A stretch of 64,000 bases of DNA from Pedobacter psychrotolerans (lineage in GTDB: Bacteria; Bacteroidota; Bacteroidia; Sphingobacteriales; Sphingobacteriaceae): positions 124,001 through 188,000 of the forward strand of contig NZ_SLWO01000009.1 in the NCBI RefSeq assembly GCF_004340665.1, read 5' to 3'. Each line of letters opens with the position of its first letter. Positions within the stretch are counted from its first letter, which is position 1. Position numbers and translations under genes: made by a program. The notes under the pieces were generated by a model. That model had not been told where the DNA came from, searched no databases, and saw only the letters and a program-made list of their open reading frames with translations. Below are positions 40,368 through 44,907 of the stretch, one piece after another.

Positions 40368-40863
40368 TTTCAGAAATCAGCACCAAGTCCTGAAATCAAC
40401 GTTTAAATAGTATTTAGTTCGGTTTTGGATTTCGATTCACCGAATCTCTCAACACTTATAATTTTATAAAGCATCTAATCTTCAATCTTCTCATTTTGTT
40501 CCAGTTTACAATTAATTATCGACCTATTCTAAGTCTGTTATAAACCCTTCTTTTTCCATTCTACGCAACGCACATTTACAAGTTATTTCTCCACTAAATC
40601 TGACCTAGATTTAGATCCGATTCCTACTCGTATCCTATTGCTTTCCTAAGGCATGATAGTTGCATCTTAAAGGCATGTTGGGGTTTATTAAAAAACAGAC
40701 TAAAACCTCGTTGAAAAGGGGTGAAAAAATAAACTCAATTTACTCCGAATAGATAGTCATTTTAAAGAGATGATCAATGTGGCAGTTGGCAGTAAAACCT
40801 ACCAGAGAGCAAATTACTAAAATGCATCAAAATAAGCCATAAAATGGAACCTGAATTAAACAA
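40368..40863. other. Spacer left of the integrative element
   Basis: 496 bp after the ridA-like gene with no recognisable gene, repeat array or RNA. The sequence is AT-rich, with stop codons in all frames by eye. Confidence 0.4.
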
Positions 40864-40891
40864 AAAAGCCTTACATTATTGTAAGGCTTTT
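40864..40891 (-). terminator. Displaced terminator, probably the original tRNA-Lys terminator
   Basis: An 11-bp stem AAAAGCCTTAC / GTAAGGCTTTT with a 6-nt loop. On the minus strand it ends in a T6 run. It abuts the 20-bp copy of the tRNA-Lys 3' end at 40889-40908, as expected if an insertion moved the native 3' end and terminator away from the tRNA. Confidence 0.65.
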
Positions 40892-40908
40892 CGTGATCCC
40901 GCTGGGAT
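40889..40908. repeat. Distal att site (copy of tRNA-Lys 3' end)
   Basis: Twenty bases identical, in the same orientation, to 44830-44849. The match contains GATCCCGCTGGGAT, the acceptor and T-arm part of the tRNA read on the plus strand. Identity stops immediately after this block. Confidence 0.8.
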
Positions 40909-40976
40909 AATGACTTATCAATCCAATCGGTAGTAAATGAGCAAGTTGTGAAAATTATATAATCATCATTTCAATG

Positions 40977-41000
40977 TAGGCACCAAATTGGGCACCAGTT
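40977..41000. promoter_or_regulatory. Integrase arm-type sites, distal end
   Basis: Two GGGCACCA-like words (AGGCACCAAATT and GGGCACCAGTT) lie 70-90 bp inside the distal att site. The block 40985-41000 is the reverse complement of AACTGGTGCCCAAATTT at 44683-44699, apart from one missing base. Confidence 0.55.
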
Positions 41001-41106
41001 ATTTTTATATGATTTGACTAGGTTTGAAAGAACAATTTCTATTTCAAATTTAAATAAAGCAAACCAAAATTACAAAACGTATCTGTTCTAATTTACAGAA
41101 AGTTCT

Positions 41107-41352
41107 TCAATAAATAAGTAACCAAGATTTACATCCCCCGTAATTTGATTTAAGCTCATCAATGGCCTTCATCAAAACAGAATCTTCATTTTTTAGTAAA
41201 TCCCTAATGGTATATTCTTCTTTTATATCAGGTTTGATACCCTTTCCAATAAATTCAGTACCGTCAGGAAGGGATGGAAAAACCAATTTGTATGACTCCA
41301 ATTGGCCAATTTTAATTTTTCTATAACTTGGGTGAATTCTAAACAGTTGCAA
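41107..41352 (-). pseudogene. C-terminal fragment of an S41-like peptidase
   Basis: An 81-codon frame whose middle reads LESYKLVFPSLPDGTEFIG, then GKGIKPDIKEEYTIRDLLKNEDSVLMKAIDEL. This resembles the end of C-terminal-processing (S41) peptidases (DGTEF-x-GKGIxPD followed by a helix ending in DxVLxxA). The catalytic core is missing and upstream sequence is frame-disrupted, so this is a remnant inside the integrative element. Confidence 0.5.
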
Positions 41353-41545
41353 TCTTTTAGTTTTTGGTGATAGGTTATTCGTTTTGTAAAATTGATAGCA
41401 ATAGCAAAGATATTATAATTCAAAATTGCCAACAAGTGCTTTCCTGACCTAATATGGAATAATCCAACATTCATTTTGGATATTCTCCATCTGCAATATG
41501 TTGTTGGGCGCTTATCAGGGATTTACCCAATACGAACTAAGTATC

Positions 41546-42970
41546 TTATACGTCCTTCTTTCTTAGAAGAATTAAAACAGGGGTAGCTCCCAAAGGGGTA
41601 AGCGCAAAAATCCCATATAAATAAAATGATGCATCAATAGCTCCAGCCACGCCTCCGGGATTTTTTATTCCTCCCAAATTTGTAATCAATCCAGCCAATG
41701 CTGCACCGAAAGAGGTGGCTATAAGCTGAACAGTGGTTACAGAAGAAGAGGTAAGATCTTCTTCTCCCAATGGTGATAAGGAGAACACCCTGGTCAAAAG
41801 ATGTGGCCAACCCATTCCAATTCCTGCTCCAATGGAAAGCAGAAATGCACAAGTTAGCGCAAGGTTTAGATTTGAAGATAACGAATTTGTATGAGAAATT
41901 AAAGTTAAACCCAATATGCCTAAAAACATCAGAACGGAGCCTAAAAGGATAATTTTACTAACTATACCTCCTTTGTAGCCAGAAAATGTGATAGAGGATA
42001 GTGTCCATCCAATGGCAATTAAAACAGTTAGGAATCCCGACTCCAAGGGCGAGTAATTGTGAATTATTTGTGCAAAATAGGGGACGTAAATTTCAATTGA
42101 TGTAGCTATTGTCAATAATGCCATAACGGTATAAGTGGCACCTAGGGCAGAAGATATTTTATAGGCCCCGGTAGGAAGTAAACGAAGCCCTTGCTTCTTT
42201 TCCGAAATTACCAGGAAGAACAAAAACAGGACGGCAATGAAAACTCCTACAACATTTTTCAGTACACTTTCTTGTACACTGGCCACGGAAACCGCCAATG
42301 TAGCTAGTCCTAGAAATGATAATTTTAGATAGGGAATAGAAGGAATTGTTTGCTTGTTTTTTTCTTTGGGCAAAACACCGGTGGAGATGATGTAGATTAA
42401 AATGCAGAATATCAATAAGGAACCAAAAGCCCATCTCCAATGACCATTTTCAGCAAATAGTCCGCCTAAAAAAGGCCCTGAAAAAGCAGCTATTCCCCAC
42501 ATGCCTGAAATTAGTGCCATAGCTCTGGACCATAGGTTCTTGTCAAAAACCAGTCTAATCATGGCATAGGATAAGGCGAATAGTAACCCACCTCCAAATC
42601 CCTGAACAAATCTTCCAAATAGTAAAATATACATAGTTGGTGCAAGGGTACAAAGTATTGTTCCGAGAGAAAATAGCAGGATTCCAATTTGATAGGCTTT
42701 TCTAGGACCCGATTGTGCTAACCGATTTGCTGAAATAACGGAACCAATGACAGACGCCACTACAAAGATGGTGGTATTCCATGCGTAATATTCCAAGCCG
42801 CCAATTTCTTTAATGATAGTAGGCATTATTGTAGTCGCCAAATACACATTAGTAGCATGCAACATAACCCCTAATGCTAAGGCTGTTGCCTTTAAACCGT
42901 TTTTATTTGAAAAGAGATCCTGCCAGGATGCATCTTTTACCTTTATAGTTTCAGTATTCGAATTATTCAT
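41546..42970 (-). CDS. MFS multidrug-type exporter
   Basis: 474 aa with about 13-14 hydrophobic segments, of the drug:H+ antiporter (DHA2/EmrB-like) branch. Visible: NVYLATTIMPTIIKEIGG after the first helix, the GRFVQGFGGGLLFALSYAMI motif C-like region, and SGPFLGGLFAENGHWRWAFG, a common exporter motif. It lies 85 bp downstream of an AraC regulator on the same strand inside the element, so it is probably regulated cargo that expels a toxic compound. Confidence 0.87.
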   Translation of the reverse strand: MNNSNTETIKVKDASWQDLFSNKNGLKATALALGVMLHATNVYLATTIMPTIIKEIGGLEYYAWNTTIFVVASVIGSVISANRLAQSGPRKAYQIGILLFSLGTILCTLAPTMYILLFGRFVQGFGGGLLFALSYAMIRLVFDKNLWSRAMALISGMWGIAAFSGPFLGGLFAENGHWRWAFGSLLIFCILIYIISTGVLPKEKNKQTIPSIPYLKLSFLGLATLAVSVASVQESVLKNVVGVFIAVLFLFFLVISEKKQGLRLLPTGAYKISSALGATYTVMALLTIATSIEIYVPYFAQIIHNYSPLESGFLTVLIAIGWTLSSITFSGYKGGIVSKIILLGSVLMFLGILGLTLISHTNSLSSNLNLALTCAFLLSIGAGIGMGWPHLLTRVFSLSPLGEEDLTSSSVTTVQLIATSFGAALAGLITNLGGIKNPGGVAGAIDASFYLYGIFALTPLGATPVLILLRKKDV

Positions 42971-43055
42971 CTTTTAAACTTTAGAAATCATATCGCAAAG
43001 TTCGAAAGTATTGAAATCATCGACAATATCGGATTTTCGGAATAAAGGTCAATTT

Positions 43056-43865
43056 TTACGGATTTTTTCTGAAATCATTGGGTGAACGGTTTGTATGGGT
43101 TTTGAAAAAACGGGAAAAGTAAGACGCTGTTTCAAAGCCTAATTCATCTGCACATTCTTTAATGGATAGTGTTGTGTGTTTTAAAAGGTATTGGCTTTCT
43201 AGCAAAAGCTTTTCATGAATGATCTGTAAAGCTGTACTGCCTGTTTCTTCTTTAACAACCTCTGTGAGGTGTTTGGCTGATATTCCTAAATGTGAAGCAT
43301 ACGCTCCGATAGAATTCCAGGTTAAATAATGTTCTTCCACCAGCTTTCTAAACTCATAGGTTAGTTGATAATTTCGGTTCATATTTTTGTCAAAACCCAG
43401 CAAGCAAAATTCACAAGCCCTGTTATATTCGTACAAAATCTCCGTAATGTTCAATCGAATAATATCTAAATAATAGGCATATTTTAGCTCCAGCTCGTGT
43501 TGAATTTTTTTGAATGTATGTGAAACAGACGGCGCTCTGTCATTTAGCTCATACGCAGGCGGATACTTGCTGTTTAAGGTTAATAATTCATCAACTATAT
43601 TTTCTTTGAGGAACATTTTTTGTAGGGAGAGCTTAGTAAAAAAGATCTGCTTTACTTCTAAATCTTTTGACACATTATTTGTGGAGAATAGTACATCGGG
43701 AGAGAGAATGGCAATTGTATTCGGCACAAGTTCAAATTGATGATATCCTATCTTGATAGAGGCGGCCCCCTTGTCACATATCAAAATGGTGTAGCGATTA
43801 TTCTTAATAGGACCACCTATATTCAAATTTTCTGTGCTTTCAGAATATCCTATTTCAAAATCCAT
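43056..43865 (-). CDS. AraC-family transcriptional regulator
   Basis: 269 aa. An N-terminal cupin-like sensor domain (residues about 1-150; HQFELVPNTIAILSPDVLFS) is followed by the double helix-turn-helix of AraC proteins: WNSIGAYASHLGISAKHLTEVV and TLSIKECADELGFETASYFSRFFKTHTNRSPNDFR. First gene of a two-gene unit with the MFS exporter and the likely activator of that gene. Located within the integrative element. Confidence 0.92.
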   Translation of the reverse strand: MDFEIGYSESTENLNIGGPIKNNRYTILICDKGAASIKIGYHQFELVPNTIAILSPDVLFSTNNVSKDLEVKQIFFTKLSLQKMFLKENIVDELLTLNSKYPPAYELNDRAPSVSHTFKKIQHELELKYAYYLDIIRLNITEILYEYNRACEFCLLGFDKNMNRNYQLTYEFRKLVEEHYLTWNSIGAYASHLGISAKHLTEVVKEETGSTALQIIHEKLLLESQYLLKHTTLSIKECADELGFETASYFSRFFKTHTNRSPNDFRKNP

Positions 43866-44259
43866 ATTTTTTCAATACATTAAATCTATTTACAGCTAAT
43901 TTTTTTGTTAGTATCATTTGGTTATCAAAGTCGAATACAAATAGACACCTGAAAACGATAGTTCTATTTAAAATAAAGTTAAGGACAATAATTAGGCTTA
44001 CAAATCGAATGAAAGTGCCATTAAGCGCTGAAAACATACGTGTTAGTAAATCGCACGTTCAAACTATGTTGCTCACTCTTTTTTTCAGCTGTTCTTCTCT
44101 CGGCTGCACTTTATCTAAGGTTAGTAATTCCAACTTTGACACACGCTTATTTACACTCTCAATATCGTTAGTAGATCATATATCTTTCATCTTCTACAGT
44201 TTCTCGATCTCTTTCTCCAGCTTTTCCAACTCTGATGGCCTGGTGGCGTTTACTGAGAA

Positions 44260-44613
44260 CTACCATAGATTATGCGATTTAATCTGTCCTTTGCTTTCAA
44301 TCGTAATGTTTTTGTATGAATTTTTTAACATTGTTGGAGTAATAAATTCATACTTGGTTTTTAAAACTGTAAAGTTGACTTCCAAGACACTGGATATACG
44401 ATTAAGTTCGGAATTGATCTTCTTCGCATTTTCCGACCTAACGACTTTCTTCAGCTCGACGTCCCAATTGTTAATATGGACTTTTTGCCCAGTAGAAAAC
44501 TCAGCGTCCTTGCCATCAATAGAAATTCTACAAATAATAGGGGCATAGTCTTTTAAATCGGCTTTTGATTTGCGGTGCCAGAACAGGATTTTTAGGGTTT
44601 GGTTACTTTTCAT
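44260..44613 (-). pseudogene. Truncated tyrosine recombinase/integrase (N-terminal arm domain)
   Basis: A 117-codon frame starting MKSNQTLKILFWHRKSKADLKDYAPIICRISIDG and continuing FSTGQKVHINNWD, the arm-type DNA-binding domain found at the N-terminus of Bacteroidota phage-type integrases. The core-binding and catalytic (R-H-R-Y) domains, normally another 270 or so residues, are absent; the frame stops after SHNLW. Minus-strand sequence beyond it (about 44060-44250) holds short broken coiled-coil-like frames. Position next to tRNA-Lys is standard for the integrase of such elements. Confidence 0.75.
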
Positions 44614-44682
44614 TTCTCAATCTTTTGGTAAAACATGTTGTTTTCAGATTGTGCTTCAAATGTTATTCAAGGTATTCTTGAT

Positions 44683-44735
44683 AACTGGTGCCCAAATTTA
44701 CCGATTACGTTTGGGCACCGGAATGGGCACCATTT
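44683..44735. promoter_or_regulatory. Integrase arm-type sites, tRNA-proximal end
   Basis: Three copies of the GGTGCCC/GGGCACC word: AACTGGTGCCCAAATTT, GTTTGGGCACCGG and ATGGGCACCATTTG. The first is an inverted copy of the site near the distal att repeat. They lie between the integrase remnant and the tRNA, the usual position of attP arm sites. Confidence 0.55.
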
Positions 44736-44808
44736 GTATTGGATTACTATGGTTAAAAATGACCTATTATTTTTTGCGAATCGTCGTTTAAAAAGACTTT
44801 TAAACAGA

Positions 44809-44832
44809 AAAGGCGCAATCTCTTGCGCCTTT
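44809..44832 (-). terminator. Terminator of tRNA-Lys (element-borne)
   Basis: A 10-bp stem AAAGGCGCAA / TTGCGCCTTT with a 4-nt loop; the minus strand continues with TCTGTTT. It lies directly after the tRNA 3' end and differs in sequence from the displaced terminator at 40864-40891. Confidence 0.75.
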
Positions 44833-44834
44833 CG

Positions 44835-44907
44835 TGATCCCGCTGGGATTCGAACCCAGGACCACTACATTAAAAGTGTAATGCTCTACCAGCTGAGCTA
44901 CGGAATC
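44835..44907 (-). tRNA. tRNA-Lys (anticodon TTT)
   Basis: 73 nt. The acceptor stem GATTCCG pairs with CGGGATC (one T-G wobble); D arm TAGCTCAGCTGGTAGAGC; anticodon stem TTACA/TGTAG with loop CTTTTAA (anticodon TTT); T arm CTGGG TTCGAAT CCCAG; discriminator A. CCA is not encoded. The 3' end serves as the integration site of the neighbouring element. Confidence 0.97.

Follow-up and report, generated by a model that had tools for sequence, protein, structure and literature searches.

A segment of 3.94 kb beside a tRNA-Lys gene is very probably a relic of the CIME type, derived from a family of ICEs that target the tRNA-Lys 3' end. CIMEs descend from ICEs or IMEs and retain att sites after the loss of recombination and transfer genes (PMC5704250, PMC7563491). 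The window analysed here is a stretch of 64,000 nucleotides (contig 9, positions 124001-188000) of a source genome of 5.19 Mb in 23 contigs. Unless stated otherwise, coordinates are window positions.

The tRNA-Lys target and its displaced 3' end

The features of the insertion site are the following:

44834-44907, minus strand: tRNA-Lys (anticodon TTT, ARAGORN), insertion target, its 3' end read as rebuilt by the element
44830-44849, no strand: tRNA-proximal att core (20-bp direct repeat)
44812-44829, minus strand: element-borne hairpin GGCGCAA-GAGA-TTGCGCC, conserved in the family, now following tRNA-Lys
40889-40908, no strand: distal att core (20-bp direct repeat), read as the displaced original tRNA 3' end
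40863-40892, minus strand: displaced native-type tRNA-Lys terminator with a 13-pair stem (terminator scan)

The two copies of the repeat TTTCGTGATCCCGCTGGGAT are identical at all 20 positions, and 16 of these bases are tRNA sequence. The repeat coordinates and the ARAGORN call bear out the preliminary description, which had reported a perfect 20-bp repeat overlapping the tRNA 3' end. The displaced terminator that it placed at the far end is recovered by the terminator scan. Its second claim of this kind, a different terminator beside the tRNA, stands in part: the hairpin is present and conserved in relatives, with a T-run below what the scan reports, and was read directly from the sequence. 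The repeat is not common in the genome, where the exact 20-mer TTTCGTGATCCCGCTGGGAT occurs three times in 5.19 Mb, twice as the copies in the window. The third copy (C7:153162) has no adjoining tRNA and is the displaced att that bounds another tRNA-Lys island on its distal side, which strengthens the att reading.

Uninterrupted loci were searched with a 220-bp query joining the left flank, the distal repeat and the rest of tRNA-Lys. It matches loci in the congeners G003, G030, G020 and G009 (93-94% identity over 146-148 bp), the matches spanning the junction. The empty site proposed as a check, tRNA-Lys followed by the 40864-type terminator, is therefore found in all four. Those of G020 and G009 are the orthologous tRNA-Lys locus adjoining an NrtR-like gene, and a CCTCACAGAAATGTGAGG-type terminator, of the same type as that displaced to 40863-40892, lies there directly after tRNA-Lys. 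The earlier claim that an element integrated and exchanged the tRNA 3' end and terminator is supported by the empty sites and the joined-flank matches. At the sequence level, these comparisons demonstrate both the insertion and the replacement.

Element ends and the family to which they belong

Both ends carry further conserved features:

44686-44732, minus strand: integrase-end group of three arm-type sites (TGGTGCCCA), two of them direct at a 12-bp step (44724-44732, 44712-44720) and one inverted (44686-44694)
40977-40997, minus strand: distal-end pair of arm-type sites (TGGTGCCCA), likewise at a 12-bp step
40889-41038, no strand: conserved distal att end common to five related elements (83-91% identity)

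The tRNA-proximal end recurs in genomes of the same genus as a unit composed of the GGCGCAA-GAGA-TTGCGCC hairpin, three TGGTGCCCA sites and an integrase starting with MKSNQ. Five genomes contain the distal end, which runs inwards from the core and includes the two arm sites, and in all of them the homology ends at roughly one shared point (~41038). The two ends together hold five arm sites with at most two mismatches, against a mean of 0.57 and a maximum of 4 in shuffled sequences. Of the ten family integrase loci scanned, nine adjoin tRNA-Lys and one (L092) abuts another element's end. Judged by both of its ends, the window segment clearly belongs to this same-genus family of tRNA-Lys elements (family A).

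Element sizes in the relatives were taken from contigs on which both ends could be paired. The element of G022 spans about 83 kb (G022:C9:330125-413717), that of G013 about 95 kb (G013:C1:2337776-2432641) and that of G020 10.5 kb. Both of the large elements contain TraG (TIGR03783), the conjugation ATPase of CTnDOT-type elements. TraJ, TraK and TraM are found above NCBIfam cut-offs in the G022 element, and also with Pfam. TraG is absent from the genome to which the window belongs. The ORFs of the segment are limited to an integrase fragment, an AraC-family gene, an MFS gene and short unassigned ORFs, among which no conjugation-gene remnant was recognised. By gene content, the transfer genes are thus missing from the segment. 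The proposal that the element lost most of its own genes gains support from the 83-kb and 95-kb relatives, which have both ends and conjugation genes.

The truncated integrase

Two features lie at the integrase end:

44260-44613, minus strand: truncated tyrosine integrase of 117 aa, arm-DNA-binding domain only, family homology ending near 44273
44087-44160, no strand: stretch with weak similarity (76-82% identity) to one end of an IS256-type insertion sequence

The only Pfam domain of the fragment is Arm-DNA-bind_5 (PF17293, E 1.2e-10). The intact integrase of G022 has 429 aa and includes arm-binding, SAM-like and catalytic domains. The truncation, already noticed in the preliminary description, is evident from this comparison, and the full-length relatives that it recommended searching for exist and are located at tRNA-Lys. 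A search of the window's own genome returned no family integrase at E 1e-80 or better. As the genome lacks a cognate integrase, the element should now be immobile. By analogy with the CIME literature, a related ICE landing in one of its att sites could carry the segment along.

The probable IS-end fragment (~44087-44160) lies close to the point where the integrase is broken off and may indicate the way in which the deletion arose. On the branch leading to the window, the integrase fragment has accumulated five synonymous and two non-synonymous changes, numbers too small to speak for or against selection on it. The fragment is free of stops. It might still be expressed and occupy the arm sites in competition with newly arriving ICEs of this family, thereby serving as a small exclusion factor for tRNA-Lys, but we consider this speculation very improbable. 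In G025 (L048, G025:C13), which is another species, the tRNA-Lys/NrtR locus holds a family integrase that has decayed independently, with an ACG start codon and frameshifts.

A foreign AraC-MFS pair

Two complete genes occupy the interior:

41546-42970, minus strand: MFS exporter, DHA2/EmrB-like, 474 aa, intact
43056-43865, minus strand: AraC-family regulator, 269 aa, intact

The AraC-MFS pair described previously is real and forms an intact operon. The DHA2/EmrB-like assignment of the MFS protein scores under the family cut-off, and its exporter activity is predicted from the family alone. The nearest relatives of the two genes, in the same order, are found in Flavobacterium, Myroides and Chryseobacterium (62-71% identity for MFS, 59-67% for AraC). 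Relatives in its own genus are more distant: the six closest MFS proteins share 52-55% identity and all lack an AraC partner. This distribution suggests that the pair is most likely a foreign operon of Flavobacteriia-like origin. It may have entered either with the ICE or at a later time. The idea that ICEs of this family typically carry the operon was rejected, as the pair is absent from every other member examined and the six closest MFS relatives in the genus have no AraC partner.

The peptidase fragment proposed at 41107-41352 was not confirmed. Searches of this region against Pfam and NCBIfam gave no match (the best hit, at E 0.12, is to an unrelated family), and the label was rejected. 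Short DNA matches to it occur in G153 and G110, with no clear gene there. Outside the segment, a short dispersed repeat at 40620-40679 has at least four further copies in the genome (C3, C1, C4, C5; 83-92% identity).

A second element family at tRNA-Lys

A second family (B) shares its core with family A, but its arm sites are CTCACCGAAT-like and its integrase is a different one. The family-B integrase found at tRNA-Lys in G007 is 32% identical to that of family A. Members of the two families are joined in other genomes: in G017 the distal end of family A adjoins a family-B end, and in G129 the integrase end of family A adjoins the distal end of family B. One trace of this family is present in the window:

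40395-40459, no strand: relic of a family-B distal end with its core lost (65 bp, 86% identity), adjoining a RidA-like gene

This match suggests that another element, of family B, probably decayed at the window locus too. A second tRNA-Lys of the same genome, on C7, carries a family-B island of 26.75 kb (G000:C7:153162-179990, L046-L047) which ends at the exact 20-mer copy. It encodes an intact integrase, a MobA/VirD2-type relaxase, an SNF2 helicase, ArsR, an ArsC-like phosphatase and an SBF-family transporter (arsenic-type), and is a candidate mobilizable element. Copies of the 16-bp tRNA-Lys 3' end, each with a terminator, are stacked within a few hundred bases in L060 (G003:C6) and L057 (G020:C2), with four copies within 390 bp in L060. 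They look like traces left by successive rounds of insertion and loss.

Origin of the segment

The shared ends with Tra-bearing elements, the truncated integrase and a genome devoid of TraG lead us to read the segment as an internally deleted ICE. In this scenario, a full-length ICE would have recombined its 20-bp core, identical to the tRNA sequence, into the tRNA-Lys gene. The ICE copy would have restored the tRNA-Lys 3' end and supplied its own downstream hairpin, and the native 3' end and terminator are now displaced by 3.9 kb. Internal deletions, perhaps aided by IS elements, would then have removed the conjugation genes and the whole integrase except its arm-binding domain. What is left is the pair of att ends, each with its arm sites, together with the foreign AraC-MFS operon. 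The preliminary description had proposed a small integrative element. The inserted element stands, with the refinement that it most likely descends from an ICE. Since no relative was found with the same internal content, passage of the lineage through a full ICE stage is what we infer.

The ancestor could instead have been a small non-conjugative IME or mobile genomic island with the same integrase and att ends, the window copy being its remnant. The G020 member, which has both ends within 10.5 kb, makes a small ancestor possible, and the lack of any recognised conjugation-gene remnant in the segment agrees with it. However, the G020 integrase is broken at about residue 181, so that this element also looks decayed, and the two largest delimited members carry conjugation genes. 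We therefore regard a small ancestor as unlikely, although it is the least improbable of the alternatives. Phages too encode tyrosine integrases with arm-binding domains, and the segment could accordingly be the remnant of a prophage or phage satellite with a phage-type integrase. Yet no phage gene was seen in the segment and the relatives carry CTnDOT-type Tra genes; a prophage origin was rejected on these grounds and appears very improbable. The reading that fits least has no att site at all, the tRNA 3' end having been repeated by chance or by a segmental duplication. The 20-mer is rare, the element ends are conserved in other genomes and empty sites exist; the empty sites and shared ends refute this reading, which retains virtually no probability.

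Comparison with known elements

The deleted-ICE reading places the segment among the CIMEs. Both att sites are kept (20-bp cores, conserved ends and arm sites on each side). Integration genes are lost, the arm-binding domain being left and the family integrase absent elsewhere in the genome. The conjugation and mobilization genes are also lost, as judged from the ORF content and a genome without TraG, and descent from an ICE or IME is indicated by the ends held in common with the 83- and 95-kb Tra-bearing elements. A complete ICE has an intact integrase and a conjugation module, which the segment does not. Neither is it an IME, defined by its own integrase and a relaxase or oriT: its integrase is truncated and no relaxase is present among its ORFs.

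The decay of ICEs to CIME-type relics is a general process already described in Streptococcus. In Streptococcus agalactiae, 215 CIMEs have been reported at tRNA-Lys, alone or stacked with other elements, and cargo-bearing CIMEs measure 1.2-13 kb (PMC5704250, PMC7563491). The window segment resembles the CIMEs at tRNA-Lys of S. agalactiae and S. salivarius in its flanking att sites, its lack of recombination and transfer genes, its cargo, its size, its tRNA 3'-end target and tandem stacking (PMC5704250, PMC7563491). It differs from them by its Bacteroidota host, its integrase family and the leftover N-terminal integrase fragment. CTnDOT-type ICEs, including some reported in Mucilaginibacter (PMC6316836), resemble the relatives sharing both ends, with TraG/J/K/M and a tyrosine recombinase, whereas the window copy lacks these Tra genes and its target is tRNA-Lys. 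NBU1, NBU2 and Tn6031 are Bacteroidota IMEs with tyrosine integrases located in tRNA genes (PMC5704250). The likeness is one of target and recombinase type (a tyrosine recombinase inserting the element at a tRNA 3' end), but the window segment uses a different tRNA and has no mobilization genes. We found nothing specific in the literature on tRNA-Lys elements in this bacterial group.

The segment would thus provide a worked Bacteroidota case of a conjugative element cut down to a few kb of cargo, within a size series (95, 83, 10.5 and 3.9 kb) of elements whose ends are shared. The comparison also shows tRNA-Lys to be a hotspot in which elements of two or more integrase families, differing in their arm sites, pile up and decay. 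It accounts as well for the Flavobacteriia-type exporter operon sitting beside the tRNA.
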